Origin: a virus
IMG/VR virus record: IMGVR_UViG_3300042544_002506
Location: 1 to 52,732 of that record
DNA length: 52,732 nucleotides
Strand: one strand, 5' to 3'
Below the pieces are notes generated by a model, which was not told where the DNA came from, made no database searches, and saw only the letters and a list, made by a program, of their open reading frames with translations. The position numbers and the translations under genes are program-made. Positions 845 through 16,730 of this stretch are shown piece after piece (positions within the stretch are counted from its first letter, which is position 1; each line of letters opens with the position of its first letter).

Positions 845-1012
845 ATGGCAAGCTCAGGAAAAGGTAAAGGCAGCGTAAAGACTGTTGAATGGTGGAAACA
901 TCTTCGTGATCGCAAACGCGCTCAAAATCGTTTGGTGCGAGAAGATGGCAAAGAACAGATTGAAACAGAATTAGAGGAAGCTGAAGAGGAGGGTGAAGAT
1001 GAAGAATATTAA
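845..1012 (+). CDS. Very small charged protein
   Basis: 55 residues: a basic N-terminal half (GKGKGSVK, then RDRKRAQNR) and a strongly acidic tail rich in Glu ending EDEEY. The tail overlaps the start of the first SV-array minigene in the same style as that family's junctions. A nucleic-acid or protein-binding adaptor is possible but only a guess. Confidence 0.6.
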   Translation: MASSGKGKGSVKTVEWWKHLRDRKRAQNRLVREDGKEQIETELEEAEEEGEDEEY

Positions 1013-1205
1013 ACACGAAGCGTATAATTTTATAAGTGTTGCGGTATGGGACGCAGCAGCACATAGTGTAGAGCATGCTGTTGATAATTATGTAAGCGGA
1101 CTTGCGTGGGGTAGTGCGTGGGACAGCATAAGCAATACTATATGGGCTATTGATGATAGTTCAAGAGATACTGTTAACAATACGATAGGCGCCTATGAAT
1201 ATTGA
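999..1205 (+). CDS. SV-repeat-family minigene A1
   Basis: 68 residues; the ATG at 999 (MKNIKHE) is preferred over the GTG at 993 because family members start MNIE/MKNI. A degraded four-residue period of Val/Ala (SVAVWDAAAHSVEHAV) runs through the body and it ends TIGAYEY. The last codons contain the ATG of the next member. First of 33 related minigenes in the window; function unknown. Confidence 0.7.
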   Translation: MKNIKHEAYNFISVAVWDAAAHSVEHAVDNYVSGLAWGSAWDSISNTIWAIDDSSRDTVNNTIGAYEY

Positions 1206-1377
1206 AACTGAAATAAGTTACAATGTGTACTATTCAGTGCTGTTCTTGGTGCATAGCCCTGTGAGTGGCGCTGTGAATTGTTCTGTGGGTGTTTCTGTGT
1301 ATAATACTGTGAGGGATGATGTGTGGAATTCAGTTAGTGATTCAGTTAGCAATGCAATAAAGGAATATGAATATTGA
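1195..1377 (+). CDS. SV-repeat-family minigene A2
   Basis: 60 residues, start MNIETEIS, end AIKEYEY. The second half (CSVGVSVYNTVRDDVWNSV) shows the x-Ser-Val-x period clearly. It overlaps both neighbours by 11 nt through the TATGAATATTGA junction, which implies coupled translation. Confidence 0.75.
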   Translation: MNIETEISYNVYYSVLFLVHSPVSGAVNCSVGVSVYNTVRDDVWNSVSDSVSNAIKEYEY

Positions 1378-1609
1378 AACTATAACACATGCATCTTTTA
1401 CAGAAGAAATTACTGAATTATGGGATGATGTTTGGAATTCAGTAATTTTTAGGACAAATTATAATTTGAATCGCGATGTTGCACTTAATATACGCAATCG
1501 TGTAAGTGAATTTGAAATAAGCCTTAGAGACGCTGGTCAATCTGAAGCTGGCGCATATAGTGGTGCGATGCACCGCACTAGACTAATAACAACAACCATT
1601 TTACAATAA
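1367..1609 (+). CDS. SV-repeat-family minigene A3 (array end)
   Basis: 80 residues with the family start MNIETITH but a C-terminus (TRLITTTILQ) that lacks EYEY, as expected for the last gene of a coupled array. Only faint repeat character is left (DDVWNSV). The stop is followed at once by an early promoter. Confidence 0.65.
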   Translation: MNIETITHASFTEEITELWDDVWNSVIFRTNYNLNRDVALNIRNRVSEFEISLRDAGQSEAGAYSGAMHRTRLITTTILQ

Positions 1610-1627
1610 CGAACTACAATATAATAA
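1608..1627 (+). promoter_or_regulatory. Early promoter
   Basis: AACGAACT-ACAA-TATAAT, directly after the array A stop and 6 nt before the 1634 start codon. Confidence 0.8.
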
Positions 1628-1633
1628 AAACAT

Positions 1634-2020
1634 ATGGGACTTGACATGTACTTAACTTCGCGCTCAGAAAATGAGCGCGCTAAAGCAAATGATTATGCCG
1701 ATTGGGCAGTGCTCGCCTATTGGCGCAAATTCAATGCACTACACGCTTGGTTTGTGCGCAATGTGCAAGACGACGTAGATAACTGCGGCGATTATGTTGT
1801 GACACAATCTAAACTAAGTGAGCTTATAGGCGTTCTCAAGACGCTGCAGCAGACTCGCGATACAAGCTTGCTGCCAACACAAAGCGGCTTCTTTTTTGGA
1901 GATACTAATTACGACCAATGGTATTGGAGCAAGGTTGCCTCTGCTATTGATACACTATCTAAAATCTTAACAACCTTTGACTTTGAAAACGATGAACTTC
2001 TTTATACTTCAAGCTGGTAA
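1634..2020 (+). CDS. Conserved phage protein of the 'MGLDMYL' type
   Basis: 128 residues beginning MGLDMYLTSR, a start I recall from many otherwise uncharacterised phage proteins. It is rich in Trp and Tyr (WAVLAYWRKFNALHAWF near residues 24-40; YDQWYWSKV near 97), suggesting a compact globular protein. Function unknown; the recognition is from memory of the N-terminal motif. Confidence 0.75.
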   Translation: MGLDMYLTSRSENERAKANDYADWAVLAYWRKFNALHAWFVRNVQDDVDNCGDYVVTQSKLSELIGVLKTLQQTRDTSLLPTQSGFFFGDTNYDQWYWSKVASAIDTLSKILTTFDFENDELLYTSSW

Positions 2021-2027
2021 CCCTCCT

Positions 2028-2234
2028 ATGGACAATAAGATCGCTGCGATAATTTTTCTATGCAGTGCTGTATTGGTTGTAACACACATACTTTCCTATG
2101 CAGCTGGTGCTAATGCTGAGAGTCCAGGCGGTGGTGATGCACCAATAATGCTGCCATTCGTATTGGTTATGGTTGCTACAATCGCATCAACATTATTCTC
2201 TCTTATTATTATCTTAACAAACATCTTATCTTAA
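2028..2234 (+). CDS. Small two-helix membrane protein
   Basis: 68 residues from the ATG at 2028 (an in-frame ATG at 1992 would overlap the previous gene). Two hydrophobic segments, about residues 4-22 and 43-66, flank a Gly/Pro-rich loop (ESPGGGDAP). Probably an inner-membrane early protein. No family recognised. Confidence 0.6.
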   Translation: MDNKIAAIIFLCSAVLVVTHILSYAAGANAESPGGGDAPIMLPFVLVMVATIASTLFSLIIILTNILS

Positions 2235-2243
2235 AATAACTAA

Positions 2244-2263
2244 AAGGAACTACTGTATAATAT
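2244..2263 (+). promoter_or_regulatory. Early promoter, GGAACT variant
   Basis: AAGGAACT-ACTG-TATAAT; drives the HD-domain gene at 2268, whose ATG is only 6 nt past the -10 box. Confidence 0.7.
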
Positions 2264-2267
2264 AATT

Positions 2268-2819
2268 ATGACAAGAGAACTTGCAATTGAAATTGCGACT
2301 GCTGCACACGCTGGGCAAAAGCGTAAAAACAGCGGAGAAGATTATATCGCGCATCCTTTAAAGGTTGCTGAGAACGCAGAACGAATTTTTCGAGAAGAAT
2401 ATGCTGGTGATTTCTTCCCTGATGAAGTAGAAGTTATTGCAAGAAAAATCTATATTGTCGGTGTGCTGCACGATGTAATTGAAGATACTGAGGTCAATTT
2501 GGAAGCAATATCCAATGTCTTTCCCGATATTCATATTCTTCAAGCATTGGCTAAGCTTACTCGACATGAAGGTCAAACCTATTTTGATTTCATCAAAGAA
2601 GTTATCGACAATGGCAGCATAATTGCTAAGATTGTAAAGATTGCCGATATTCGGCACAATATGAGCGACTTGAAGGAAGGCTCTTTGAAAGATAAATATC
2701 GCTTTGCTTTGGATAAGCTAACTGATACTTCAAAAGAACGCAAAGACCTATTGCAGCGAATACAAGCATTAGAAGACGAAATTGATGATATGCATTATCA
2801 ATCGCAAATGAATTTATAA
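2268..2819 (+). CDS. HD-domain (p)ppGpp hydrolase-like protein (SpoT/MESH1 type)
   Basis: 183 residues covering a single HD hydrolase domain of the RelA/SpoT family without synthetase or regulatory parts, the size of MESH1-like small alarmone hydrolases. Visible ligands and motifs are H29 (EDYIAHP), H68-D69 followed by E72-D73 (VLHDVIEDT), and D127/N131 (KIADIRHN). The family removes the 3' pyrophosphate of ppGpp using Mn2+. A phage copy under an early promoter could blunt the host stringent response during takeover; that role is inferred. Activity on other nucleotides is possible. Confidence 0.8.
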   Translation: MTRELAIEIATAAHAGQKRKNSGEDYIAHPLKVAENAERIFREEYAGDFFPDEVEVIARKIYIVGVLHDVIEDTEVNLEAISNVFPDIHILQALAKLTRHEGQTYFDFIKEVIDNGSIIAKIVKIADIRHNMSDLKEGSLKDKYRFALDKLTDTSKERKDLLQRIQALEDEIDDMHYQSQMNL

Positions 2820-2830
2820 AAGAAACTACT

Positions 2831-3367
2831 ATGAAAATATTTTGGGACATTGACGAGACACTGATTCATTCTCGTGTTTACATTGACAGTAAACATAAGC
2901 ACACATTCGTCGTTGACGTTTATGACGAACTCTACTACACATGCGTGCGACCCTGCTCCAATGACTTGATTAACTATAGTCGAGAATTGGTTGGTGCAGA
3001 TAATGTTTACATCTTAACTGCAGCGGCTGAGTTATATGCGCAGCGTATTAGTAAGAAAGCTGATTGGGGCTTTGCCGAGGATCATATCATTGGTCGGGAA
3101 ACTATTGAACGCTATAGCATTAATATCCCAAGTTTGTATGGCAGCAGCACGTATGTATCAGAGCATCCATTAGCTCATCCTGATAATGTCTTGATTGACA
3201 ACTTGATGCCAGAGTGGAACAATGAAAAGACATCGTTGATGCGCATTAATCCTAAGACAAACTATTGCAAAGTTGATGATTATATAGGCTATAATTTGGA
3301 AGAAGACATCTTTAGAGATAATATTAAACACTTTTTGAAAACGAGATATGAGAACAAAACAATTTGA
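2831..3367 (+). CDS. HAD-superfamily phosphatase
   Basis: 178 residues. The N-terminus carries HAD motif I, D6-I-D8-E-T (WDIDETL), motif II Thr lies in ILTAAAE (about T63), and an acidic motif appears as VLIDN. The insert pattern fits a small FCP1/5'-nucleotidase-like HAD enzyme. Substrate unknown. The gene follows the HD protein by 11 nt, so the two may be co-expressed. It overlaps the next gene by 20 nt. Confidence 0.75.
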   Translation: MKIFWDIDETLIHSRVYIDSKHKHTFVVDVYDELYYTCVRPCSNDLINYSRELVGADNVYILTAAAELYAQRISKKADWGFAEDHIIGRETIERYSINIPSLYGSSTYVSEHPLAHPDNVLIDNLMPEWNNEKTSLMRINPKTNYCKVDDYIGYNLEEDIFRDNIKHFLKTRYENKTI

Positions 3368-3644
3368 ATTGAGTAACGGTGACTTAGCTAATGGCGAGTC
3401 AATTGAAGAGATGATTAAAACTCTTGAGAGCCTTAACAAACGAGCAAAGGAGCTAGGAGCAATTGATACATCTGTCGATTTTTATCGAGGAGACTATGGC
3501 TATGTTGAAATTTCAGCAACCCGATACATGACACCTGAAGAGGTAGCAAAAGCTGAAGCAGACGATGCAGTCAGAAACCAAAGACAGCTTGACTTTGAGC
3601 GTAGACAATACGAAGCTCTTAGAGCAAAATTCGAAAAGCAATAA
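3348..3644 (+). CDS. Hypothetical coiled-coil protein
   Basis: 98 residues; starts inside the last codons of the HAD gene at an ATATGAG overlap. The C-terminal half is long, charged and helical (EVAKAEADDAVRNQRQ, then FERRQYEALRAKFEKQ). No catalytic motif is seen. Confidence 0.65.
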   Translation: MRTKQFELSNGDLANGESIEEMIKTLESLNKRAKELGAIDTSVDFYRGDYGYVEISATRYMTPEEVAKAEADDAVRNQRQLDFERRQYEALRAKFEKQ

Positions 3645-3662
3645 CGAACTCTAATATAATTA
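3643..3662 (+). promoter_or_regulatory. Early promoter
   Basis: AACGAACT-CTAA-TATAAT; precedes the 51-residue gene at 3675. Confidence 0.8.
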
Positions 3663-3674
3663 AGGACAGCAAAT

Positions 3675-3830
3675 ATGAAACTACTACAAAAAATTAAAAA
3701 CGTATTCACTCGCCGTCAATCAGTTTATGGTGCTAAGATCTTTACGCAACGTTCTTGGCTCGATCGTCAAGTAGACGACGCAATCTATAAGCGCGAGATG
3801 ATGCGCGGCGTTGGACCAGCTATCAAATAA
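3675..3830 (+). CDS. Very small basic protein
   Basis: 51 residues, net positive, with a helical amphipathic start (KLLQKIKNVFTRR) and a basic tail (YKREMMRGVGPAIK). Has its own promoter and a tidy ORF, which supports it being real. Function unknown. Confidence 0.6.
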   Translation: MKLLQKIKNVFTRRQSVYGAKIFTQRSWLDRQVDDAIYKREMMRGVGPAIK

Positions 3831-3852
3831 CAAAACAGTTAATTGAAAACAA

Positions 3853-3872
3853 AACGAACTACATTATAATTA
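3853..3872 (+). promoter_or_regulatory. Early promoter
   Basis: AACGAACT-ACAT-TATAAT; drives the DUF6745-like gene at 3879. Confidence 0.8.
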
Positions 3873-3878
3873 AAACAT

Positions 3879-4853
3879 ATGAAAGAGAAAATTACTCATA
3901 TCACTGACGAACAAAAAGCAAAAATGCCACAGTATGTGGATAGGTGGATCAAGACCGGTACTAATACTGATCGACTCGATCCAGTCCGTACCGCGAAGAC
4001 AATTGAGAACTACCGTAAGCTTATTGGTAAGCCTGTTGATGTTCCTTTGATTATCCTCGATAACCCTCTTGAAGCGTGGGCGGCTTGCCATCTCCTTAGT
4101 AACTTCGGAGTGAGCTTTGAGAACCTTAATGCAGAGCTTGCAGAGGTTTTCAATGGTAACCCTAAAGGCTATGAGATTCCTCGTGCTCGACTGCCATGGC
4201 AATGCGGTTCGTTCTTTGTATCGACCTTCTCCTTCTATGACTATATGTTTGAAGAGCTGGGCGTTGAGATCGACGCAGAGCTTTACGCGAAGTATAAAGT
4301 CTGGGAATCGACTTCTGAGCTTGGCTGTATCTATCCTTTGGATGAGTATACTATTGTCTCTCAGAAACCAACTGAGATTCATTTGAACGAAGCTCGTGTG
4401 CTGCATCGCGATGGTGGACCTGCTATTTCTTATGCTGGTATGGGTAACCTTAAGATCTATTGCTTGAATGGTGTTACTGTTCCAGAATATATCGCGGTGA
4501 CTCCTGAAGAGAAACTCGATCTTGAATACTACAAGACTATCGAGAACGCTGACGTCAAAGCTGAGTTTGTTCGCAAAGCTGGCATTGAACGCTTCAAAGA
4601 ACTTGGCAAATTGGTCGATGACTATACCAAGTATGCTGGAGCCGAATATGAACTCTGGCAGAAGAGTCAATATGAAATCTGGGATATGAGCGCGATCTTC
4701 GATGGTCTCGACTATGCTCCTTATTTGATGATGACAAATCTCACTACAGGTATTTATCATTTCGAGGGAGTTAGTCCAGCTTGTCGTACTCTTAAAGATG
4801 CAATCAAGGAACGCTTAGGCGGACGTGATCTTATCATTAAAGCTATTGCGTAA
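3879..4853 (+). CDS. DUF6745-like protein
   Basis: 324 residues. From memory of the family, three parts match DUF6745 proteins: an N-terminal helical segment (EQKAKMPQYVDRWI), a middle WQCGSFFVS...FYDYMFEELG block, and the hallmark LHRDGGPAISYAG followed by YCLNGVTVPEYIAVTPEE and an ENADVKAEFVRKAG segment. Bacterial members commonly carry a long DSVWDSVR-like repeat between the first two parts; this copy lacks it, while separate genes nearby encode just such repeats. Function of DUF6745 is unknown to me. It ends 11 nt inside the convergent endonuclease gene. Confidence 0.65.
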   Translation: MKEKITHITDEQKAKMPQYVDRWIKTGTNTDRLDPVRTAKTIENYRKLIGKPVDVPLIILDNPLEAWAACHLLSNFGVSFENLNAELAEVFNGNPKGYEIPRARLPWQCGSFFVSTFSFYDYMFEELGVEIDAELYAKYKVWESTSELGCIYPLDEYTIVSQKPTEIHLNEARVLHRDGGPAISYAGMGNLKIYCLNGVTVPEYIAVTPEEKLDLEYYKTIENADVKAEFVRKAGIERFKELGKLVDDYTKYAGAEYELWQKSQYEIWDMSAIFDGLDYAPYLMMTNLTTGIYHFEGVSPACRTLKDAIKERLGGRDLIIKAIA

Positions 4854-5994
4854 GCTTTAGCTTTGATTCGAGAATAGCTTCGATATTGTCGAAATCATAG
4901 TATGGAATTCTAACGAGTTCGATATTATGGTCTCGACAATATCTGTTTTTGCGTTGGTCGCGTTCTTGCGTTTCTTCGAAGGCTTTTTCTCCACCAAAAA
5001 ACTTGATAGGTTCGAAGTGTTGCTTACCGTCGAATTCTATCATTAAGTTAAGAGAAGGTACAAAGAAATCAAAATAGTATCTATAGCTATCATCCTTAAT
5101 ATATTTTTGAATTTTGTATTCACAGTTTAAAGAGTTGAGATACTTTGAAATCCTCGTCTCGCCTTGAGAGTTGCAGCACGCGACACAACCACTACCTCTC
5201 AAATGCCCACCAGGCTTTTGTTGAAACTCGCCATGAACAGGGCAGATAATATTGACGGGTGTAATACTGTTAATGTAATATACGTTTTCGTAATTGTAGA
5301 AATTATCATGAATTACGCTCGACCGCGCCACAAAACTCTTTTGTAGTTTCTTGTTATTATTTGCTCGTACTCGTTCAATGTTGCACTCTTCGCAACCACC
5401 AAACCCTCTCGATAATATAGTAGCCTTTGTCTCAAAGTACTTGTTGTGCTCAAGACACTTTACCCGTACGGTAGATACACTGTTAGCGTACCCTGATTCG
5501 GAAAGATCAAACTTATTATCTCCCCAGACGCTCTTAATAATATTCTCCCATTCTACTTTCCGCTTCGCGTGATTAGATTCAGAATAATTTTTATTTGGTT
5601 TGCATTTTTTGCAACCTCTTCCTAATGTATAGTGCGCAGAGTATGGCATCTTAAATAACCCATGGTCAGGGCAGATTATATCAACAGGCGTATTAGCATT
5701 CTTATACACAACTTTCGAATAATCGTATCTATCGCCATGCTTGTCTCTAAACTTTCCTAAAACATAATCATGGCTATGAGTTATTGGCGCACTATTTTTA
5801 ATCTTACCGCATGCCTGACAACCAAACCCTCTTAAATGAGCGCCTGCTCGTTGTTTAAATTCGCCATGCAAAGAACACACAGCTGTTATTATTGTATCGC
5901 TATTAACATAGTTGATGTTAACGTATTCATACACGCCTTTATGTACTTTTGTTGCTTTTTCGATAAAGCTCTCGTTTGTATGTCTTACAGGCAT
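4843..5994 (-). CDS. Vsr-like (EDxHD) homing endonuclease with zinc-finger repeats
   Basis: 383 residues. About residues 1-270 hold four copies of a roughly 60-residue unit ending in a CxxC knuckle (for example HGEFKQRAGAHLRGFGCQAC), a DNA-binding array common in phage homing enzymes. The C-terminus has the nuclease core FDFFVPSLNLMIEFDGKQH followed by a helix ending VRIPYYD, as in I-Bth0305I-type Vsr-like enzymes. It is convergent with the DUF6745 gene and sits behind a late-type box. Expected to cut a cognate phage locus and spread itself. Confidence 0.85.
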   Translation of the reverse strand: MPVRHTNESFIEKATKVHKGVYEYVNINYVNSDTIITAVCSLHGEFKQRAGAHLRGFGCQACGKIKNSAPITHSHDYVLGKFRDKHGDRYDYSKVVYKNANTPVDIICPDHGLFKMPYSAHYTLGRGCKKCKPNKNYSESNHAKRKVEWENIIKSVWGDNKFDLSESGYANSVSTVRVKCLEHNKYFETKATILSRGFGGCEECNIERVRANNNKKLQKSFVARSSVIHDNFYNYENVYYINSITPVNIICPVHGEFQQKPGGHLRGSGCVACCNSQGETRISKYLNSLNCEYKIQKYIKDDSYRYYFDFFVPSLNLMIEFDGKQHFEPIKFFGGEKAFEETQERDQRKNRYCRDHNIELVRIPYYDFDNIEAILESKLKLTQ

Positions 5995-6048: not shown

Positions 6049-6068
6049 AACGAACTACTATATAATTA
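6049..6068 (+). promoter_or_regulatory. Early promoter
   Basis: AACGAACT-ACTA-TATAAT, 60 nt upstream of the gene at 6128. The interval contains a small AAGCA/TGCTT hairpin and a late box, so the gene may be read both early and late. Confidence 0.7.
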
Positions 6069-6127: not shown

Positions 6128-6472
6128 ATGAAATTAAATCAAAATGAATGTGTGCTTCACGGTGAAGCAATGATTATGCCTGCTTCTCTTCCAGCTGATG
6201 CTGTAGAGATCAAGCCATCAAACGATAATTACCACATTATCGCAGACAGTGAAACTACTGGCAACCACCATGTCATCGACACGGTTCCTGGTACTCGCTT
6301 CTTCAAGAGCGGTAGTCGTACCTTTATGACTAACGAGAAAGAGACTCGTGTTCGCTGCGTGCATCCAGCTCGTCACAATGCGATTGCGTTGAGCCCTGGT
6401 ACATATGAAGTTGGCGAGAATCAACTTGAGTATGACCACTTCGCTCAGAACCTACGTAAGGTTCGCGACTAA
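6128..6472 (+). CDS. Conserved phage protein of unknown function
   Basis: 114 residues, beta-rich. HIIADSETTGNHHVID (about residues 37-52), CVHPARHNAI (about 77) and the end YDHFAQNLRKVRD resemble a widespread phage family I remember only as hypothetical. It is flanked by an early and a late promoter and followed by a strong terminator, so it forms its own unit. Confidence 0.7.
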   Translation: MKLNQNECVLHGEAMIMPASLPADAVEIKPSNDNYHIIADSETTGNHHVIDTVPGTRFFKSGSRTFMTNEKETRVRCVHPARHNAIALSPGTYEVGENQLEYDHFAQNLRKVRD

Positions 6473-7563: not shown

Positions 7564-8187
7564 ATGTCTAAGAAAATTATAGAAGGTTATGTTAACTTGA
7601 CCGGGTACTACCTCGAAGAACTTCCCGATTTCTTTAAGGATGTAAGTGTAGAAGGCGAGTTTTACTGTAACAAAAATCAATTAACTACGCTAGAAGGCTC
7701 GCCTCAAAGCGTAGGCGATCATTTTATATGTACTAGAAACCGTCTTATATCACTTAAAGGAGCTCCACAAAGAGTAGACGGTGATTTTTTATGCGGAGAT
7801 AATCGCCTAACCTCACTTGAAGGAGTTCCACTGATAATAGGTGGTGATTTTTCCTGTAATAGAAATCAATTAACTACACTCGAAGGCATATCTAAGAGTA
7901 CTATAGGTGGCGGTTTTTTTTGCGGAGGTAATCAACTAACATCGCTTGAAGGATCACCACCGGATATCAATGAATCGTTTAACTGTGAGTCAAATCGTCT
8001 TACCTCTCTCAAAGGAGGACCAGGGTATGTTGGAGGATCATTTATTTGTAGTAATAATAAACTTACTTCTCTGGAAGGTGCACCGCGTGTAGTTGATGGT
8101 GATTTCTATTGCAAAAATAATGACGTAAGGTTTACAGTAAAACAAGTAAGATCAGTGTGCAGGGTAGAAGGTGATATATATGTCTAA
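7564..8187 (+). CDS. Leucine-rich-repeat protein (21-residue repeats)
   Basis: 207 residues. Start KKIIEGYVNLTGYYLEELPDFF is a capping segment; then seven tandem 21-residue units of the type C-x-x-N-x-L-T-S-L-E-G-x-P-x-x-V-x-G-x-F, and a C-terminal tail (VKQVRSVCRVEGDIYV) shared with the LRR proteins at 31452 and 32200. Such solenoids bind proteins. It follows the PcfJ-like gene and overlaps the next LRR gene by 17 nt. Partner unknown. Confidence 0.85.
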   Translation: MSKKIIEGYVNLTGYYLEELPDFFKDVSVEGEFYCNKNQLTTLEGSPQSVGDHFICTRNRLISLKGAPQRVDGDFLCGDNRLTSLEGVPLIIGGDFSCNRNQLTTLEGISKSTIGGGFFCGGNQLTSLEGSPPDINESFNCESNRLTSLKGGPGYVGGSFICSNNKLTSLEGAPRVVDGDFYCKNNDVRFTVKQVRSVCRVEGDIYV

Positions 8188-8718: not shown

Positions 8719-8737
8719 GTGAACTACTCTATAATAT
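8719..8737 (+). promoter_or_regulatory. Early promoter, variant
   Basis: GTGAACT-ACTC-TATAAT, starting array B. Confidence 0.6.
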
Positions 8738-8783: not shown

Positions 8784-8804
8784 AGTTTATGAAGATAGGT
8801 AGTG

Positions 8805-9026
8805 ATGAGAGAAGAAACATTAGAATCCAAGATACGCGGCATAAGTGAAGCTAATATTGTGACGAGTGATCTTATATTAGCCACTCTTCGGACAGACAGT
8901 GAATGGCTTGCAAATGTCTTAAGTGAAATGGTTAGCGGTGTAACGCAATATACACGGCTAGCAGGAAGCGAGCTACAAAATCATATAGCGCAGACACTGC
9001 AAAATTATTATGAATATGGCAAATAG
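8805..9026 (+). CDS. SV-repeat-family minigene B1 (diverged)
   Basis: 73 residues from ATG 8805 (a GTG at 8802 is in frame). Repeat period lost except hints (VLSEMVSGV); ends NYYEYGK, and its penultimate codons contain the next ATG, the family junction. Confidence 0.6.
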   Translation: MREETLESKIRGISEANIVTSDLILATLRTDSEWLANVLSEMVSGVTQYTRLAGSELQNHIAQTLQNYYEYGK

Positions 9027-9231
9027 AGAGCTACAGGAAGAAGTAATTAGTAACAGCATAATCACAGCAATTATAGCAGATATGGATGCTCTTGCCGCAG
9101 AGCATCCTGACGAGTCACTTGTGATTCACAATATTTTTATACCAGTTAACAATCAGGTCGGCTCAAGATTTCTAGCAGAAATTGAAGATAAAGTCTGGAA
9201 CTATAGATATGGAAGACCTAAAGTTAAATAA
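9010..9231 (+). CDS. SV-repeat-family minigene B2 (diverged)
   Basis: 73 residues, start MNMANREL, end WNYRYGRPKVK. Overlaps B1 by 17 nt and B3 by 23 nt; the Tyr-x-Tyr end has been read through into a short basic tail. No known motif. Confidence 0.6.
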   Translation: MNMANRELQEEVISNSIITAIIADMDALAAEHPDESLVIHNIFIPVNNQVGSRFLAEIEDKVWNYRYGRPKVK

Positions 9232-9418
9232 GCGGCCACGGACTACTGAGTTTGAATCGTTTTATGATATGGTTCGCGCCGTACGTGATAACCTCTCCTG
9301 CGATCTCGACGACCCTAATTGGTGGCAAGATGTATACACACTTTCGCAAATTGAGGCTGGTGTGCATAAAGTTACAGGTGCTATACGGTGGGAGCTTTCC
9401 TTAGATAAAACGAACTAG
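9209..9418 (+). CDS. Small acidic protein ending array B
   Basis: 69 residues from ATG 9209, placed in the TATAGATATG junction of B2. Contains WWQDVYTLSQIEAGVHKVTGA, unlike SV members, so it may be an unrelated gene captured by the junction. Its stop overlaps the following promoter. Confidence 0.55.
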   Translation: MEDLKLNKRPRTTEFESFYDMVRAVRDNLSCDLDDPNWWQDVYTLSQIEAGVHKVTGAIRWELSLDKTN

Positions 9419-9428
9419 CGTATAATAG
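9409..9428 (+). promoter_or_regulatory. Early promoter
   Basis: AACGAACT-AGCG-TATAAT; starts array C. Confidence 0.8.
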
Positions 9429-9445: not shown

Positions 9446-9649
9446 ATGCATATTAATATTTACGACGAACTACTTACTCGCTGCGGAAACTCTGTGTATA
9501 GTTCTATATGGTGGCCTGTAGCAACCAACGTAAGAGATAAAATTCCTTCGGAAATGTGGGATTTTTATAAAACTACTATTATACGAGATGGTACAACTGG
9601 CTCATTAAGCAGAGAAGTAGATAATGAGGTAGGAAATTATGAATATTGA
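9446..9649 (+). CDS. SV-repeat-family minigene C1
   Basis: 67 residues. Weak repeat near the start (NSVYSSIWWPVATNV), end EVGNYEY. Opens a chain of ten overlapping minigenes behind its own promoter. Confidence 0.65.
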   Translation: MHINIYDELLTRCGNSVYSSIWWPVATNVRDKIPSEMWDFYKTTIIRDGTTGSLSREVDNEVGNYEY

Positions 9650-9845
9650 AACTATAATTGATTGTGATATCGGTCACAGATGTCGTACTGCATTTCGTCA
9701 AGAGCTTGAGAATATTTGCAAGGTCAACTTTGATGGCCATGAGTATTACGGCCTTTATATTGAGCTGACATATGATATTGACACAGTTACTGACAGCCTA
9801 TATTTTAATTTTGAAGACACCGCAGATAGCTATTACTATGATTGA
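9639..9845 (+). CDS. SV-repeat-family minigene C2 (diverged)
   Basis: 68 residues, start MNIETIID, end DSYYYD. Repeat period almost gone; notable for many Tyr and acidic residues. Junctions to both neighbours are of the overlapping TAT/ATG type. Confidence 0.6.
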   Translation: MNIETIIDCDIGHRCRTAFRQELENICKVNFDGHEYYGLYIELTYDIDTVTDSLYFNFEDTADSYYYD

Positions 9846-10044
9846 TTTAGGTGAAGAGATAAGATACAAGATACAACTCTCAGCTCGTGACGCGATTACT
9901 TCAAAATTGATAGCAGTTAAGCATATGACATTTTCTGGTTATGGCATGGCTGATGATGAGATGTGGAATGAGATTATCTCGCCAATGACACGTCTTGCTA
10001 CTGAGCTAAAGGTATGGGGAGAGATTGGACGATATGAATATTGA
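9838..10044 (+). CDS. SV-repeat-family minigene C3 (diverged)
   Basis: 68 residues from the ATG at 9838, which overlaps the previous TATGATTGA end; a longer upstream frame exists but runs through C2. Ends GEIGRYEY. Confidence 0.6.
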   Translation: MIDLGEEIRYKIQLSARDAITSKLIAVKHMTFSGYGMADDEMWNEIISPMTRLATELKVWGEIGRYEY

Positions 10045-10273
10045 ACGCAAAATATATTATGACCCATGCAACTATAGTTGGGGTGATATACAAACAAACG
10101 CATTAAAACAAATTCGTAATACAAGAAGCATCGAGGATATCATGGTTGTGGTCTCGGGTGTTGAAGAGCTATGCGATGAAGTGAGAATGCAAAGCACGCT
10201 TGAACTTTTCATTGCTAATCACAATCCTGGTAATATACTAACAACAGAAAATGAAGAAGAACATCCACGGTGA
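10034..10273 (+). CDS. SV-repeat-family minigene C4 (diverged)
   Basis: 79 residues, start MNIERKIYYD. The C-terminus (TENEEEHPR) has lost EYEY but still overlaps the next start by 23 nt. Middle part helical and acidic. Confidence 0.6.
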   Translation: MNIERKIYYDPCNYSWGDIQTNALKQIRNTRSIEDIMVVVSGVEELCDEVRMQSTLELFIANHNPGNILTTENEEEHPR

Positions 10274-10541
10274 GATTGAAGGCGAGTTGATGGATAATAC
10301 TCAAGATGCATTATGCGAATTGAGAAGCAGTGTATTTGGCAATGGCACATATATGAATAATCCCGTTCATATGCACTATCACGATACAATAAACAATCAG
10401 CTATTTCTACAAACAGTATGCACCATTAAACAAAAGCTTAATGCAGAATTTTTCAGTAGAGACATTGAAGGCATAGCAAAAATTATGAAACAAGCGCATG
10501 AAAGATTACAACGACCGCGTATTAGCAGAAGAAATCGCTGA
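10251..10541 (+). CDS. SV-array gene C5, hypothetical
   Basis: 96 residues, larger than its neighbours, with a basic C-terminus (HERLQRPRISRRNR) and no Ser-Val repeat. Overlaps both neighbours. It may be a family member rebuilt by frame drift or an inserted gene. Confidence 0.55.
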   Translation: MKKNIHGEIEGELMDNTQDALCELRSSVFGNGTYMNNPVHMHYHDTINNQLFLQTVCTIKQKLNAEFFSRDIEGIAKIMKQAHERLQRPRISRRNR

Positions 10542-10704
10542 TTTCGATAAATTCAGAAAAATCACTACAGCGATCTATAGTGCTTGGAACGATAGAGCAG
10601 ATTATCGTGTATCTAATGCTGTGCTTGTAGGGGTATTTGATGGTGTGAATCCGATACAACTTCTTTCATGCGTTGGTGCTAGTCTGAAATATTATGAATA
10701 TTGA
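10498..10704 (+). CDS. SV-repeat-family minigene C6
   Basis: 68 residues starting at the ATG inside C5's end (44 nt overlap); ends SLKYYEY. Faint period-4 valines (RVSNAVLVGVFDGV). Confidence 0.6.
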   Translation: MKDYNDRVLAEEIADFDKFRKITTAIYSAWNDRADYRVSNAVLVGVFDGVNPIQLLSCVGASLKYYEY

Positions 10705-10900
10705 AAGTAAAATAGATTTTCATATGTGGGCTTCAATTCGAGGCCGTCTGCGCGACTCTTTGGAGAGTTTCATTGACCGGGATGTTGATTATTATGCTCA
10801 GCACGATGTGATCGATGAAGTCTTTGAGCCTGTGTGTCAATCTGCTGATGACAGTGTGAAGAATAGTGTGAGAACAGCAATAGAAGAATATGAATATTGA
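10694..10900 (+). CDS. SV-repeat-family minigene C7
   Basis: 68 residues, start MNIESKID, end TAIEEYEY. The second half keeps the period (PVCQSADDSVKNSVRTAI). 11-nt overlaps on both sides. Confidence 0.7.
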   Translation: MNIESKIDFHMWASIRGRLRDSLESFIDRDVDYYAQHDVIDEVFEPVCQSADDSVKNSVRTAIEEYEY

Positions 10901-11084
10901 AAAGAAAATAGTTGATTCTGTGGTGGATGCTGCGTGCAATTCTGTGTATGGTGCTGTGTATACCAATGTATGTAATTCTGTATCTACTAATGCTAGACAT
11001 CTCGGTTGGTTTTCTGTATATAGTGCTGTGTGGAATCCAGTAGAAGATACTGTTAGTAGCAAAATAAACGAATATGAATACTGA
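10890..11084 (+). CDS. SV-repeat-family minigene C8
   Basis: 64 residues, start MNIEKKIVDSV, end SKINEYEY. Intermediate state of decay: NSVYGAVYTNVCNSVSTN is still in register, then a break at ARHLGW, then SVYSAVWNPVEDTV. Confidence 0.75.
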   Translation: MNIEKKIVDSVVDAACNSVYGAVYTNVCNSVSTNARHLGWFSVYSAVWNPVEDTVSSKINEYEY

Positions 11085-11268
11085 AAAGGAAATATATGAC
11101 TCAGTTCATGGCTCAGTTTGGAGCTCGGTTTATAGCTCAGTTCATGGCTCAGTTATTAACTCAGTTCATGACTCAGTTCATGGTTCAGTTTATGGCTCAG
11201 TTTATATCTCAGTTTATGACTCAATTTATGGCTCAATTGACAATGCAATAAACGGATATGAATATTAA
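11074..11268 (+). CDS. Near-perfect SV tetrapeptide-repeat minigene C9
   Basis: 64 residues: cap MNTEKEIY, about twelve x-Ser-Val-x units in unbroken register (HGSV, WSSV, YSSV, HDSV and so on), then NAINGYEY. The repeated codons are almost always TCA GTT, while the two codons between vary. No signal peptide or Cys. A regular helix or solenoid with a Val stripe is likely; function unknown. Confidence 0.8.
   Translation: MNTEKEIYDSVHGSVWSSVYSSVHGSVINSVHDSVHGSVYGSVYISVYDSIYGSIDNAINGYEY
11098..11241 (+). repeat. 12-bp tandem repeat coding x-Ser-Val-x
   Basis: Twelve units of NNC-TCA-GTT-NNN in register; TCAGTT is nearly invariant. Confidence 0.9.
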
Positions 11269-11488
11269 AAACGAATTAACAAACTCATGCAATAGTGTGT
11301 CAATGAAAGTAGAATTAGATCTTTATAATAGCGTAAGTAATTGCGCTACACTTACATCAGTGACAACTGTTAAGCTTGCTCTTGTGCATGATCTTTGCAA
11401 GGTAATGAATTATGCATCGCCGATTAGTGTAAAACACGCTGTAGATAGTGAAATAGAACAATATAGATACAATGCAATTGGGTCCTGA
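11258..11488 (+). CDS. SV-repeat-family minigene C10 (array end)
   Basis: 76 residues, start MNIKNELT, end EQYRYNAIGS. Repeat decayed (LYNSVSNCATLTSVTTV). As the last gene of the chain it has lost the exact EYEY end and start-overlap junction. Confidence 0.65.
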   Translation: MNIKNELTNSCNSVSMKVELDLYNSVSNCATLTSVTTVKLALVHDLCKVMNYASPISVKHAVDSEIEQYRYNAIGS

Positions 11489-13003: not shown

Positions 13004-13024
13004 GGGAGTCAAATAGTGAGATAA

Positions 13025-13059
13025 AGAGAGCCTATAGAAATATAGGCTCTTTTCTTTTT
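13025..13059 (+). terminator. Rho-independent terminator
   Basis: Perfect ten-pair stem AGAGCCTATA/TATAGGCTCT with a GAAA tetraloop, then TTTCTTTTT; ends the late 11510 transcript just before an early promoter. Confidence 0.9.
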
Positions 13060-13079
13060 AACGAACTAGTGTATAATAT
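13060..13079 (+). promoter_or_regulatory. Early promoter
   Basis: AACGAACT-AGTG-TATAAT; starts array D of eleven minigenes. Confidence 0.8.
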
Positions 13080-13090
13080 AATGAAGGGGT

Positions 13091-13285
13091 ATGTATAATA
13101 AAATTGACAAGGTAGCAGAGATGATAGAATCTCCGCCATATTCTCAGGTGAGATCTTGTGTTTTTAGTTGCATAGATGGTGCTGTAAAACAGGATGCGTG
13201 GCATTATGTAGTTGCTAACACGCATAACGCAACATTCTCTGTAAGAGCTTCTGTTTACGAATCAATTAGGGAATATGAATATTGA
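13091..13285 (+). CDS. SV-repeat-family minigene D1
   Basis: 64 residues, no MNIE cap (MYNKIDKVAEM) because it is first behind the promoter; ends ESIREYEY. Only the end (SVRASVYESI) is in repeat register. Confidence 0.65.
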   Translation: MYNKIDKVAEMIESPPYSQVRSCVFSCIDGAVKQDAWHYVVANTHNATFSVRASVYESIREYEY

Positions 13286-13493
13286 AAAGAAAATAGATGT
13301 TTCAGTTTGGAGCTCAGTTTGGGGCTCAGTTTATAGCTCGGTTAATGGCTCAGTTAGGAGCTCAGTTTGGACCTCAGTTTGGACCTCAGTTGATAGCTCA
13401 GTTAATAACTCAGTTTATGACTCAGTTATTAACTCAGTTTGGGACTCAGTTTGGAGCTCAGTTGATAATACAATAAAGGAATATGAATATTGA
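13275..13493 (+). CDS. Near-perfect SV tetrapeptide-repeat minigene D2
   Basis: 72 residues, the longest clean copy: cap MNIEKKID, then about fourteen Ser-Val units (WSSV, WGSV, YSSV, NGSV, RSSV, WTSV twice, DSSV, NNSV, YDSV, INSV, WDSV, WSSV), then DNTIKEYEY. Trp is frequent at the variable site. Strong nucleotide conservation of TCAGTT argues for recent expansion or gene conversion. Confidence 0.8.
   Translation: MNIEKKIDVSVWSSVWGSVYSSVNGSVRSSVWTSVWTSVDSSVNNSVYDSVINSVWDSVWSSVDNTIKEYEY
13308..13466 (+). repeat. 12-bp tandem repeat coding x-Ser-Val-x
   Basis: Fourteen TCAGTT/TCGGTT hexamers spaced exactly 12 bp; between them Z codons (TGG, TAT, AAT, AGG, GAT, ATT) and X codons (AGC, GGC, ACC, AAC, GAC). 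Confidence 0.9.
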
Positions 13494-13692
13494 AAAGGAA
13501 CTAAGGGATAATATTGCGAGATATGTAAATCATGCTGTGTATATTTCAGTATATAGTCGTATATACGACTCAGCGCCTGAAGTTGAAACAGATGTATATT
13601 TTAGGGTACGACTTTCTGTAGGCGATATAGTGACGAGTTCGCTCAAGGGTAATACATCAACGCATATTGAAAACTATAGCTATAAGAAGTAA
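13483..13692 (+). CDS. SV-repeat-family minigene D3
   Basis: 69 residues, start MNIEKELR, end ENYSYKK. The repeat survives in HAVYISVYSRIYDSA. The junction to the next gene is broken here: the next ATG lies 1 nt after the stop. Confidence 0.65.
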   Translation: MNIEKELRDNIARYVNHAVYISVYSRIYDSAPEVETDVYFRVRLSVGDIVTSSLKGNTSTHIENYSYKK

Positions 13693-13693
13693 A

Positions 13694-13906
13694 ATGAGCG
13701 CACCAGTAGAATATATTGTTGGGAACTGTACCTATGGTATTATTGATAATGTAGTATATAATCAAATAATAGTAATATGTGGAGACGCTATTGAGAGAGA
13801 TCCTTCTATTGTTATTTGGGAGGAGTTCTATAAAAGTGTGAACGACTCTACAAGTGGCAGTTTACGTAGAACTATTGCTACTAACATTATCAACTATGAA
13901 TATTAA
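13694..13906 (+). CDS. SV-repeat-family minigene D4 (diverged)
   Basis: 70 residues from the first ATG after D3; ends TNIINYEY, which contains the D5 start. Ser-rich end (KSVNDSTSGSLRRTI) is the only trace of the repeat. Confidence 0.6.
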   Translation: MSAPVEYIVGNCTYGIIDNVVYNQIIVICGDAIERDPSIVIWEEFYKSVNDSTSGSLRRTIATNIINYEY

Positions 13907-14099
13907 AAATGAGGTATATGACGATGTATGTCTTAATGTAGATTACCCTTTGCGGGAAGAGCTAGGTGATTTTTTGTTAGGTTGTGTAAGCAGTGCCGCG
14001 TATAACTCTGCGTGGTATTCGTTGTGGGAGTCTTTACGAGATCCAACAATCAGTCCGCAGAGTTGTACCGATGATGTAGTAGGTGAATATGAATATTGA
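13896..14099 (+). CDS. SV-repeat-family minigene D5 (diverged)
   Basis: 67 residues, start MNIKNEVYDDV, end DVVGEYEY. Partly in register (CVSSAAYNSAWYSLWESL). Confidence 0.65.
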   Translation: MNIKNEVYDDVCLNVDYPLREELGDFLLGCVSSAAYNSAWYSLWESLRDPTISPQSCTDDVVGEYEY

Positions 14100-14295
14100 T
14101 AGCGAAATACACTATAATGTACGAGACACGGTAAGGTCTTCTGTAGGCCATGCACTTTGGGATTCTGTGAGCGATATTATTACTCTCCATGTTACATGCT
14201 CATTGAGTGCTCCTCTGAGGAATAAGGTTGATGATATTGTAAGCGTTGTAAGTGATACTGTATACACAGCAATATATGAAACAAATGAATATTGA
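14089..14295 (+). CDS. SV-repeat-family minigene D6
   Basis: 68 residues from ATG 14089 (GTG 14083 also in frame). Register visible in VRDTVRSSVGHALWDSV and VVSDTVYTAI; ends YETNEY. Confidence 0.65.
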   Translation: MNIDSEIHYNVRDTVRSSVGHALWDSVSDIITLHVTCSLSAPLRNKVDDIVSVVSDTVYTAIYETNEY

Positions 14296-14497
14296 AAAGG
14301 AAATATGGGAGAGAGCGTGCGAGGGCGAGTGGCATTCAGTATCTCAGACTGTGTGGAAAGCTACTCTTCGTAATAATCTAATGGCTAATTGTTTGGTGTC
14401 AGAAACTGTACGAAGTGTTGAGTATGCAGTGCGAGATTCTTTGCAGTCTTCTGTAGAGCAAGCTGTTGATAATACAATAAAGGAATATGGATATTGA
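14285..14497 (+). CDS. SV-repeat-family minigene D7
   Basis: 70 residues, start MNIEKEIW, end NTIKEYGY. C-terminal half in register (VRSVEYAVRDSLQSSVEQAV). A single base change turned EYEY into EYGY and the next start MNIE into MDIE. Confidence 0.7.
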   Translation: MNIEKEIWERACEGEWHSVSQTVWKATLRNNLMANCLVSETVRSVEYAVRDSLQSSVEQAVDNTIKEYGY

Positions 14498-14681
14498 AAA
14501 GGAAATAGATCGCTCAGTTGGTGTTACAGTTTTTGACTCAGTTAGTGTCTCAGTTTGGAGCTCGGTTTATAGCTCAGTTCATGGCTCAGTTTGGAACTCG
14601 GTTAGTAACTCAATTTATGGCTCAGTTGGCGTCTCAGTTTGGGACTCAGTTGATGATACAATAGCAGGATATGAATATTGA
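14487..14681 (+). CDS. Near-perfect SV tetrapeptide-repeat minigene D8
   Basis: 64 residues: cap MDIEKEID, about twelve units (FDSV, SVSV, WSSV, YSSV, HGSV, WNSV, GVSV, WDSV), end DDTIAGYEY. Adjacent to a second clean copy, so a recent tandem duplication is likely. Confidence 0.8.
   Translation: MDIEKEIDRSVGVTVFDSVSVSVWSSVYSSVHGSVWNSVSNSIYGSVGVSVWDSVDDTIAGYEY
14511..14653 (+). repeat. 12-bp tandem repeat coding x-Ser-Val-x
   Basis: Twelve units; one Ile substitution (TCAATT) and one ACAGTT break the otherwise invariant TCAGTT. Confidence 0.9.
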
Positions 14682-14865
14682 AAAGGAAATAGATGACTCA
14701 GTTTATGACTCAGTTTATGACTCAGTTTGCGACTCAGTTAGTGACTCAGTTGGTGCCTCAGTTCATGGCTCAGTTATTAACTCAGTTCGTAGCTCAGTTT
14801 GGGGCTCAGTTCATATCTCAGTTAGGAACTCAGTTGATAATACAATAAAGGAATATGAATATTGA
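14671..14865 (+). CDS. Near-perfect SV tetrapeptide-repeat minigene D9
   Basis: 64 residues: cap MNIEKEID, units YDSV (twice), CDSV, SDSV, GASV, HGSV, INSV, RSSV, WGSV, HISV, RNSV, end DNTIKEYEY. Same length as D8 but different variable residues, showing that only two of four positions diversify. Confidence 0.8.
   Translation: MNIEKEIDDSVYDSVYDSVCDSVSDSVGASVHGSVINSVRSSVWGSVHISVRNSVDNTIKEYEY
14694..14837 (+). repeat. 12-bp tandem repeat coding x-Ser-Val-x
   Basis: Twelve consecutive CTCAGTT hexamer units; X codons all have the form NNC. Confidence 0.9.
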
Positions 14866-15061
14866 AACGGAGATAAAAGAAATTACAAGAAATTCCGTGT
14901 TTATGAGTGTATATTGCAAGATACACTCGTGTGCTCATAGTAATATAGCTAAACAAGTTTTACAAGACACTTACATACTGAGTCAAAGGGTGTATGATAG
15001 CGCACGGGTAACTGCTATAAAAACCGAAGAACACAAAAACAATATAAATGAAAGATATTAA
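14855..15061 (+). CDS. SV-repeat-family minigene D10 (diverged)
   Basis: 68 residues, start MNIETEIK, end NNINERY. Repeat limited to RNSVFMSVYCKI. The D11 start lies in its last codons. Confidence 0.65.
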   Translation: MNIETEIKEITRNSVFMSVYCKIHSCAHSNIAKQVLQDTYILSQRVYDSARVTAIKTEEHKNNINERY

Positions 15062-15266
15062 CCTCATTGTAGACTTCCGTATATCTAGTAAAGAACACAT
15101 TGCAACATTAACTATAGCACGCTCTATAGAAAACGCTGTCGAGTATGGTGTATGGTCGAGTGCGTGGATAGGAGTAAAAGCACCTGTGCGTGATACTGTA
15201 GGCGAATTTTCGACTGTAATAGATCCATTTCTACGCCCTAGAGCTGTTAAAACCGTACAATTTTAG
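15048..15266 (+). CDS. SV-repeat-family minigene D11 (array end)
   Basis: 72 residues, start MKDINLIV, no EYEY end. AVEYGVWSSAWIGVKAPVRDTV is still in period. Last gene of array D. Confidence 0.6.
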   Translation: MKDINLIVDFRISSKEHIATLTIARSIENAVEYGVWSSAWIGVKAPVRDTVGEFSTVIDPFLRPRAVKTVQF

Positions 15267-15436
15267 TGTAAAAGATTGTAAAAATAACCAAAAGTTTTTA
15301 CAAAAGTTTTATGAAATAATGCGCATGAAGTTATAATAAGCCTATAAAGCTCAAAGGAAAAGGAAGATATATGGAAAGAGGAAATATAGAAATATAAGGA
15401 ACCAGGATAAAATATATTGAATGAAGGGAGCGAAAT
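15267..15436. other. Intergenic AT-rich gap between arrays D and E
   Basis: 170 bp with no convincing gene. A -10-like TATAAT at 15332-15337 lacks the AACGAACT box. An ATG GAA AGA GGA ORF of 8 codons at 15371 may be the remnant of a minigene start. Confidence 0.4.
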
Positions 15437-15628
15437 ATGGATATTGCAATAGAAATATTGTATCGTGAGTTCGAAAACAGCATTGAATGGCGTACCGGTA
15501 TATTCGAAAATTTAGAAAGAAATACAGAGCGTGAAATAATAAATTATGTGCAAAGCAATAGTTGGTATAATTCAGAAACATCACAACTCACACGAGATCT
15601 AAAAGAAAAAATATATGCCGCGTTTTGA
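15437..15628 (+). CDS. SV-array minigene E1 (diverged)
   Basis: 63 residues, start MDIAIEILY, preceded by a purine-rich GAAGGGAG. No EYEY end, but the following gene starts inside its last codons. Function unknown. Confidence 0.55.
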   Translation: MDIAIEILYREFENSIEWRTGIFENLERNTEREIINYVQSNSWYNSETSQLTRDLKEKIYAAF

Positions 15629-15815
15629 TAATGAAGAAGAATGGTTCAAAGCGTGGAGTACTTTGAATGGTGCATGCGCAGTTCAATTGCATAAGTGTAT
15701 TCATGACTCGATGACGCTCATGACGAGAAACAATATAAAAGTTAATGTGCAGAATACTGTAGGGAGAATTACGAATACTATAAAATATGGACACTCTGAG
15801 AAATACCAAGATTAA
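15615..15815 (+). CDS. SV-array minigene E2 (diverged)
   Basis: 66 residues, end GHSEKYQD. Slight period in VNVQNTVGRITNTI. Overlaps E1 by 14 nt. Confidence 0.55.
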   Translation: MPRFDNEEEWFKAWSTLNGACAVQLHKCIHDSMTLMTRNNIKVNVQNTVGRITNTIKYGHSEKYQD

Positions 15816-15820
15816 CAACT

Positions 15821-16051
15821 ATGGAACCGTTTAAAACACCTTACTTTGATTCACCATTTTACGCGTTGTACGATATCAATAACACTATGGAAAGAGAAAT
15901 ATACGCTATCCTCGATACAAAGGTATCATTCATAGTGCGCTTAACAGTACTTGATAATGTTAGATTTATGCTATCACGTCCGCACGATAGCATTCATAAT
16001 AGTATACACGACGCTATGCACGAATACTTTAAAACCACCACGGCAAAATAA
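15821..16051 (+). CDS. SV-array minigene E3 (diverged)
   Basis: 76 residues; an internal MEREIYAIL looks like a family cap with an N-terminal extension, and SIHNSIHDAMHEYF is a degraded repeat plus EYEY end. Confidence 0.55.
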   Translation: MEPFKTPYFDSPFYALYDINNTMEREIYAILDTKVSFIVRLTVLDNVRFMLSRPHDSIHNSIHDAMHEYFKTTTAK

Positions 16052-16085
16052 TTTACACGACGCGCTGAGAGCAACCTCGTGCTAT

Positions 16086-16105
16086 AACGAACTATAATAT
16101 AACGA
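16086..16105 (+). promoter_or_regulatory. Early promoter
   Basis: AACGAACT-ATAA-TATAAC; starts array F. Confidence 0.7.
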
Positions 16106-16110
16106 GTGAT

Positions 16111-16296
16111 ATGAAAGAACTATATGATTACTGTGGGTATACTATGTACGATACAATGAGCAAAAGCTTGCTTGAGAGTACTGGTAGCGCTGCGTGGTAT
16201 GATGTAAGAGATGATGTGTATACTTCTGTGCTAGATGTAATGCGACGCACTGTGGAGAATACTGTAGCAAGCGCGATTTATGAATATGAATATTGA
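16111..16296 (+). CDS. SV-repeat-family minigene F1
   Basis: 61 residues, no MNIE cap (first gene), repeat in DVRDDVYTSVLDVMRRTVENTV, end AIYEYEY. Confidence 0.7.
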   Translation: MKELYDYCGYTMYDTMSKSLLESTGSAAWYDVRDDVYTSVLDVMRRTVENTVASAIYEYEY

Positions 16297-16492
16297 AGGG
16301 CATTTATATGATATAACCCGGCGCAAAACCTATATCAATATAGTCGACCAGCTTTTCGATAAAATATCGAAACCTGTGTTTAGTAGAGTAACAGACGACA
16401 CTTGGACGCAAGTAGAGATTCCAGTAGGTAACGTAGTATGGAGCCAGTTGTATGATAATATAGCAAGCACACTTTATGAATACAAGTACTGA
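16286..16492 (+). CDS. SV-repeat-family minigene F2
   Basis: 68 residues from ATG 16286 (ATG 16280 is in frame), start MNIEGHLY, end TLYEYKY. Period faint (PVGNVVWSQLYDNI). Confidence 0.65.
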   Translation: MNIEGHLYDITRRKTYINIVDQLFDKISKPVFSRVTDDTWTQVEIPVGNVVWSQLYDNIASTLYEYKY

Positions 16493-16730
16493 TATAAAGC
16501 AAATCTTAGTTGGTCCAAGCAGCGAGGTATGCGACGCAACATGGAACACCCTTTGCACCTCTTTGAATGTCGAGTCTCTCAAAAAGATTGGTAGTGCTTA
16601 CGAATCAAAAAAAGCGGTAATTGGCGGCGTAAATGCAGGGGTGGTTCGGGAGTTGGAAGGAATCCGGAGAATGGGTTTCAGTGTGGACGAGGTTATTGAT
16701 AACGAACCTCAGTATAATATAGGAGTATGA
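16476..16730 (+). CDS. SV-array gene F3, hypothetical
   Basis: 84 residues, start MNTSTDIK at the family junction. The body (VCDATWNTLCTSL; GVVRELEGIRRMGF) is not repetitive. Its last ten codons are the next early promoter: DNEPQYNIGV is encoded by AACGAACCTCAGTATAATAT and flanks. Confidence 0.6.
   Translation: MNTSTDIKQILVGPSSEVCDATWNTLCTSLNVESLKKIGSAYESKKAVIGGVNAGVVRELEGIRRMGFSVDEVIDNEPQYNIGV
16701..16720 (+). promoter_or_regulatory. Early promoter inside a coding end
   Basis: AACGAACC-TCAG-TATAAT within the 3' end of F3; drives 16727 with only 6 nt before the ATG. Confidence 0.75.

Follow-up and report, generated by a model that had tools for sequence, protein, structure and literature searches.

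What could dozens of short, overlapping genes built on a single tetrapeptide repeat do for a phage? The question is raised by IMG/VR virus record IMGVR_UViG_3300042544_002506, which was analysed over its whole length of 52,732 nucleotides (referred to as the window). This 52.7-kb record encodes a phage major head protein, a ribonucleotide reductase and a DNA ligase, and is therefore considered a fragment of a tailed phage. A preliminary description, made from the sequence alone, had pointed to 33 minigenes (m1 to m33) built on an x-Ser-Val-x repeat, the unit of which is written here as x1-x2-Ser-Val (xxSV; Gln-Val, xxQV, in some phages), and had suggested inhibitors, decoys or scaffolds. The best-supported reading of these minigenes, as far as sequence comparison can tell, is that of a diversifying binding module. 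More precisely, the arrays may be trans-encoded, recombining and diversifying recognition modules of a host-interaction module formed by two other genes, DUF6745 and GHAHA, an answer to which a little less than even likelihood is given. The anatomy of the arrays is strongly supported; what the products might bind, with which partner and to what phenotypic effect is what we infer from it. Names in G or L denote the other phage or bacterial records compared (L080 is part of G003, and L092 is G001:56001-73442), many of these records and loci being fragments and not whole genomes.

Organization of the minigene arrays

All 33 small open reading frames (ORFs) are present where they had been described, on the plus strand and in six clusters; their summed length of 7,029 nt agrees with the 7 kb first estimated, and the mean product length is 70 aa. 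Between 8.80 and 16.73 kb there are 32 plus-strand ORFs of at least 55 aa, against 3.25 in Markov-resampled sequence, and 25 ORFs have a coupled successor, against 0.04 after resampling (at most 1 in each of 100 trials). The MNIE start and EYEY end proposed as hallmarks of the family do exist, yet they are one DNA element in two frames and not two protein motifs: both are encoded by the same DNA, TATGAATATTGA, and the caps therefore double as an 11-nt stop-start overlap, (T)ATGAATATTGA, with ATGAATATTGA occurring 13 times.

The minigenes also form an expanded family, as had been suggested. With leave-one-out hidden Markov models (HMMs), 28 of the 33 products outscore each of 200 residue-shuffled versions of themselves and m11 is borderline, being outscored by one of its own 200 shuffles, while m4, m6, m28 and m33 are unrecognisable by sequence and belong to the set by position and size alone. 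The view of separate, coupled genes was borne out, and an origin of the arrays from one decayed gene was rejected. The +1 frame of the pure copies (TQFMAQFG...) was likewise discarded as the functional frame, because both the coupled start-stop overlaps and the peptide common to phages sit in the SV frame.

Cluster A (993-1609) comprises m1 (993-1205), m2 (1195-1377) and m3 (1367-1609), the last two starting within the 11-nt overlap, and cluster B (8802-9418), which is not xxSV-like, comprises m4 (8802-9026), m5 (9010-9231) and m6 (9209-9418). Cluster C (9446-11488) runs from m7 (9446-9649) through m8 (9639-9845), m9 (9838-10044), m10 (10034-10273), m11 (10251-10541), m12 (10498-10704), m13 (10694-10900), m14 (10890-11084) and m15 (11074-11268) to m16 (11258-11488). 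Cluster D (13091-15266) contains m17 (13091-13285), m18 (13275-13493), m19 (13483-13692), m20 (13694-13906), m21 (13896-14099), m22 (14089-14295), m23 (14285-14497), m24 (14487-14681), m25 (14671-14865), m26 (14855-15061) and m27 (15048-15266). Finally, cluster E (15437-16051) consists of m28 (15437-15628), m29 (15615-15815) and m30 (15821-16051), and cluster F (16111-16730) of m31 (16111-16296), m32 (16286-16492) and m33 (16476-16730). The copies starting at 11074, 13275, 14487 and 14671 (m15, m18, m24 and m25) are nearly pure xxSV repeat, just as described.

Diversification of the tetrapeptide repeat

Position x1 of the repeat is rich in W, Y, R, H, S, G and N, and x2 is mostly D, N, G or S. 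The Ser-Val codons are nearly frozen within each phage and different between phages: TCA-GTT in the window, TCC-GTT in L009, TCT-GTA in L017, TCC-GTG in L013, TCT-GTG in L016 and AGT-GTG in L014. Judged by this comparison, the repeat is a protein-level one, the peptide being common to phages and the DNA not.

The variable residues differ chiefly at the first and second codon positions, and in the window most x2 codons have the form RNC. Mutational steps were counted on minimum spanning trees of the distinct 12-mers, and the expectation was calculated with transitions weighted by 2 and Ser-Val kept constant. Over ten arrays, 46 synonymous steps were found against 200 non-synonymous ones, about 102 synonymous steps being expected, and eight of the ten arrays individually show the synonymous deficit (p <0.05); given these assumptions and the non-independence of tree edges, the counts are strong, not formal, evidence. 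Furthermore, near-pure copies compared in pairs give omega values of 1.6-3.6, two of the six pairs being individually significant. Substitution patterns of this kind show the x1 and x2 residues of the repeats to be changing under what appears to be diversifying pressure.

Diverged copies and array turnover

The less regular copies had been seen as every stage of decay, a claim that was not borne out for the copies open to comparison: the diverged m9 and m32 are under purifying selection, whereas the pure copies diversify non-synonymously. In G003, the orthologue of m9 (L080:4305-4532) is 65% identical (omega 0.33, Fisher p 0.0012) and that of m32 (L080:4516-4740) is 51% identical (omega 0.32, Fisher p 0.0006). 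Orthologues of m4 and m5 occur in L097/L098 (73-76% and 75% identity, respectively), with omega values of 0.48-0.63 and no significant departure below 1.

Most core genes of the window share 58-92% identity with their counterparts in G001/G003, yet clear orthologues were found there for only two of the 33 minigenes. L097 and L098 are closer relatives, with 75-97% DNA identity over shared flanks and 85% over DUF6745; they retain DUF6745, GHAHA and the whole or part of cluster B, and the cluster A region (846-1611) is absent from L097, with a clean junction. Moreover, G006 and G002 are 99.8% identical over 2,982 bp reaching into an array, and what is a 66-aa minigene plus the next minigene in one corresponds in the other to one chimaeric minigene of 46 aa, as recombination between repeats would be expected to produce. 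Comparisons such as these show units and whole minigenes being gained, lost and fused, apparently via recombination between repeats. A second case of fusion by deletion within a cluster is the 43-aa gene at L097:8661-8792, in which an m5-like start is joined to an m6-like end.

Association with DUF6745 and GHAHA

The DUF6745 (PF20530) protein of the window is encoded on the plus strand at 3879-4853, in the same region as the arrays (Pfam E 4.9e-8, 32.9 bits with a cut-off of 27); it contains no internal tetrapeptide array and gives an omega of 0.05 against L097. The GHAHA-type protein (6128-6472, plus strand) is named after the conserved motif of its relatives (YRQGDV...GE.TGHAHA...), which belong to phrog_27831 according to the match in L076. 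An endonuclease-like gene on the minus strand (4843-5994; DUF723, with a weak PvuRts1I-like match) lies between the two and is absent from L097/L098. Searched against PDB folds, the DUF6745 model yielded no relative (best E 0.6), and the matches in a viral library were DUF6745 proteins, e.g. that of Microcystis phage LMM01.

The arrays had been taken as specific to one lineage, which does not hold: several other phages have xxSV or xxQV arrays adjoining DUF6745, and in further phages and in bacteria the repeat is built into the DUF6745 protein. Stand-alone xxSV minigenes adjoin DUF6745 in G001/G002, G004, G005, G007, L100 and L101, and xxQV minigenes do so in L102 and L112, which were counted as one lineage because their DUF6745 is 85% identical. 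L100, L101, L102 and L112 were retrieved via DUF6745 and not via the repeat, and a search with DUF6745 only still retrieves repeats in L100, L101, L102 and L105. In many DUF6745 proteins the array is internal, flanked by an N-terminal segment and the DUF6745 domain, with xxSV in L013, L015, L016 and L076 and xxQV in L077 and L105; the same site holds xSSL in phage MW202476 and xxQL in prophage prophiGD102-1, and a Deinococcus plasmid protein has a leucine-rich-repeat-like (LRR-like) N-terminal half in place of tetrapeptides. In the window, by contrast, the repeat is split off as stand-alone genes. Minigenes accompany eight of ten DUF6745 genes without internal repeats and none of six with them (Fisher p 0.007, some of the loci being fragments).

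Of 21 records tested, 16 encode GHAHA; these are all the records with DUF6745, and the five without it (G003 and G010-G013) lack GHAHA. The gene is adjacent to DUF6745 in most loci examined. The pair is also present in Streptomyces and Deinococcus plasmids, beside an STM4011-4015 cluster. Some kind of link of the minigenes to DUF6745 is, on the whole, probable.

The 914-aa DUF6745 protein encoded at L016:9323-12067 has more than 100 tetrapeptide units. Its repeat region matches the PADLOC nicking-endonuclease model 'REase_II', probably by composition, and the match was left uninterpreted.

Transcription and translation signals

The promoters that had been proposed in front of the arrays are supported by sequence matches to a shared phage-type class, found before four of the six clusters. 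The class, GAACT-N4-TATAAT, has 23 matches in the window with at most one mismatch, against 0.65 expected, and its GAACTA subclass lies ahead of DUF6745, GHAHA and clusters B, C, D and F, consistent with their co-regulation. Promoter-like GAACTA-N3-TATAAT elements lie on the plus strand at 3856-3870 (8 nt ahead of the DUF6745 start), 6052-6066 (ahead of the GHAHA gene), 8721-8735 (cluster B), 9412-9426 (cluster C) and 13063-13077 (cluster D, immediately 3' of a terminator-like hairpin at 13024-13053), and GAACTA-N3-TATAAC lies at 16089-16103 (cluster F, plus strand, 7 nt ahead of m31).

Behind GAACT-N4-TATAAT, the start codon is mostly 6-8 nt past TATAAT (e.g. 3856-3879, 19185-19208 and 24484-24505), and the phage seems to use leaderless mRNAs. 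A Shine-Dalgarno motif is present at six of 27 internal minigene starts, against none of 21 control genes of the window. With starts so close to TATAAT and Shine-Dalgarno motifs so scarce, reinitiation at the overlaps is a reasonable inference.

Relation to known systems

The minigene region and its products have no match in INPHARED; the products have no Pfam match above the cut-off (including DUF6745, PF20530), no convincing PHROGs match (none with E <0.007), no PADLOC match and no match among PDB sequences. The minigene alignment proved too divergent as a query for a collection scan, and a DNA-pattern scan of viral contigs gave mostly chance matches apart from the array phages already known. 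In the literature library searched, no paper names DUF6745 and none contains the SV-repeat strings tested. The preliminary description knew of no phage system like this one, and indeed no described system with such an organization was found in that literature, in which an array of numerous coupled, diversifying repeat minigenes linked to a module of this kind seems to have no precedent.

For one aspect, the tetrapeptide repeat of a single protein, an analogue has been described. Mycobacteriophage Tweety gp54 is a tetrapeptide-repeat protein whose 12-bp unit encodes two constant and two variable residues and whose repeat number varies between relatives (PMC2884959), and its repeat-number mutants overcome prophage defence (PMC9262239). 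The sequence of gp54 has W, G or Q at x1 and S or Y at x2, as in the minigene repeat. Its third codon positions are invariant while first and second positions vary, a pattern that the minigenes share for x2, whereas their x1 third position also varies. The gp54 repeat, however, is AAxx and not xxSV, and it belongs to a single large protein and not to a minigene array; the unique N- and C-terminal domains of that protein have no counterparts in the minigene products. It is an analogue and not a relative. Similarly, bbp36 VR2 of Bordetella phage BMP-1 is a tandem repeat of variable copy number in a non-essential phage gene (PMC2884959), but its 24-bp element lies within one gene, with no coupled minigene array. 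Diversity-generating retroelements resemble the arrays in their codon-restricted diversity, with one variable region there and a tandem repeat array here.

Possible function of the arrays and alternative explanations

With reinitiation at the TATGAATATTGA overlap, each mRNA would give rise to several related repeat proteins. Working in trans, these proteins would provide the DUF6745-GHAHA module with interchangeable means of recognition, a role proposed because of the constraint on two diverged copies, the diversification of x1 and x2, the recombination, and the recurrent tie to DUF6745-GHAHA, in cis or in trans. Such modules could bind or occupy variable host targets, most likely components of the host's defences, and the phage might retune their specificity through x1 and x2, the number of units and the number of genes, in the manner of the repeat-number changes of Tweety gp54. 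A counter-defence purpose is the best guess, more readily doubted than believed, and is made by analogy, the closest experimentally studied case, gp54, being one that overcomes prophage defence. Slightly more doubtful again is the fullest form of the proposal, a modular recognition repertoire of dozens of coupled repeat proteins, each unit variable at two residues, which would be diversified by recombination and selection and would supply a DUF6745-GHAHA core in trans as host targets change.

Several observations weigh against recognition modules of this kind. The omegas of paralogue pairs are individually weak (Fisher p 0.008-0.42), and that comparison pairs units which are possibly not homologous one to one. 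G003 carries minigenes without DUF6745 or GHAHA in its 86-kb fragment, and the L097/L098 contigs examined have no xxSV minigene despite their DUF6745. The flanks of gp54 are not homologous to DUF6745 (no Pfam match; hhalign probability 0.09% against the DUF6745 alignment), and no PADLOC match connects the module to defence or counter-defence. Fold predictions are also inconsistent in confidence: AlphaFold predicts m25 as a single helix (residues 3-62) with a predicted local distance difference test score (pLDDT) of 91, while in the L076 DUF6745 protein the repeat is helical but mostly below 50, most of the DUF6745 domain being above 75. The predicted helix is accordingly not relied upon here.

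That same helix is the starting point of a structural or scaffolding explanation, in which long amphipathic helices would associate with one another, with membranes or with structures of the virion or of replication, and loose sequence requirements would account for the diversity. A V at every fourth residue would make a winding hydrophobic stripe along the 60-residue helix predicted for m25, and many near-equivalent copies would suit such a role. Nevertheless, helix propensity is poor for S, V, G, N, D, W and Y, the same repeat is of low confidence inside a DUF6745 protein, loose requirements predict relaxed and not excess non-synonymous change at x1 and x2, and close relatives lack the arrays, as they would hardly lack a core structural part; the explanation is held to be unlikely. 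Much less likely is that the products are multi-core substrates similar to ribosomally synthesized and post-translationally modified peptides, processed by a DUF6745-associated enzyme. The peptides are small, repetitive and rich in W, Y and S, and STM-cluster genes adjoin DUF6745 in Streptomyces and Deinococcus plasmids, with radical S-adenosylmethionine members in Deinococcus; however, that domain (PF04055) is absent from all of 11 phage records with arrays or DUF6745 (fragments; control positive in 14 of 14 genomes), and elsewhere, in phages and bacteria, the repeat belongs to the DUF6745 protein itself.

Three further explanations were rejected. A selfish or neutral minisatellite, whose 12-bp repeat grows by slippage and unequal crossing-over with open frames as a by-product, would account for arrays rearranged between near-identical phages and for codons homogenised within each phage; it is made highly improbable by the omega of about 0.32 of orthologous diverged copies, the excess of coupled junctions (25 against 0.04 by chance), the encoding of one peptide repeat by different codons in different phages and the recurrent association with DUF6745 and GHAHA. 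The near-invariant positions in the window do form a contiguous 7-nt block, as would be expected if the conserved CTCAGTT recurring every 12 bp were the functional part of a DNA-level element (iteron-like sites, or a recombination or packaging signal); this is even more improbable, as Ser-Val is common to the array phages and the 7-mer is not in all of them, the repeat occurs within DUF6745 proteins, and diverged copies without the repeat are still conserved as proteins. Least credible of all is the creation of x1 and x2 variation by targeted mutagenesis through a diversity-generating retroelement, since the reverse transcriptase domain RVT_1 is absent from seven array records (fragments; control positive in three of 14 genomes), variation is spread across all units of many genes, and the codon pattern is not the same between phages.

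If the minigenes are indeed diversifying recognition modules, they would constitute a phage protein repertoire that changes at two residues per four-residue unit and is reshuffled by recombination, a form not previously described. Moreover, DUF6745 and its partner gene, both widespread and unexplained, would for the first time have a role open to test, and the arrays would offer natural collections of repeat proteins in which a possible residue code could be studied. The number of such arrays is probably underestimated, as several contigs (L099, L100 and L102) end inside or near one.

Other features of the window

Two paralogues of one small gene (272-505 and 17614-17848) lie on either side of the array region, the second being 95% identical to an L097/L098 gene whose position is syntenic with 272-505. 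Three LRR-like proteins of the LTSLEGAP type are encoded in the window (7564-8187, 31452-32207 and 32200-32880). A 102-nt tRNA at 18334-18435, perhaps with an insertion, is matched by Rfam and missed by ARAGORN. Finally, L092, a related phage contig, contains more than 20 tRNAs and a tmRNA-like gene with the tag GKNTLALAA.

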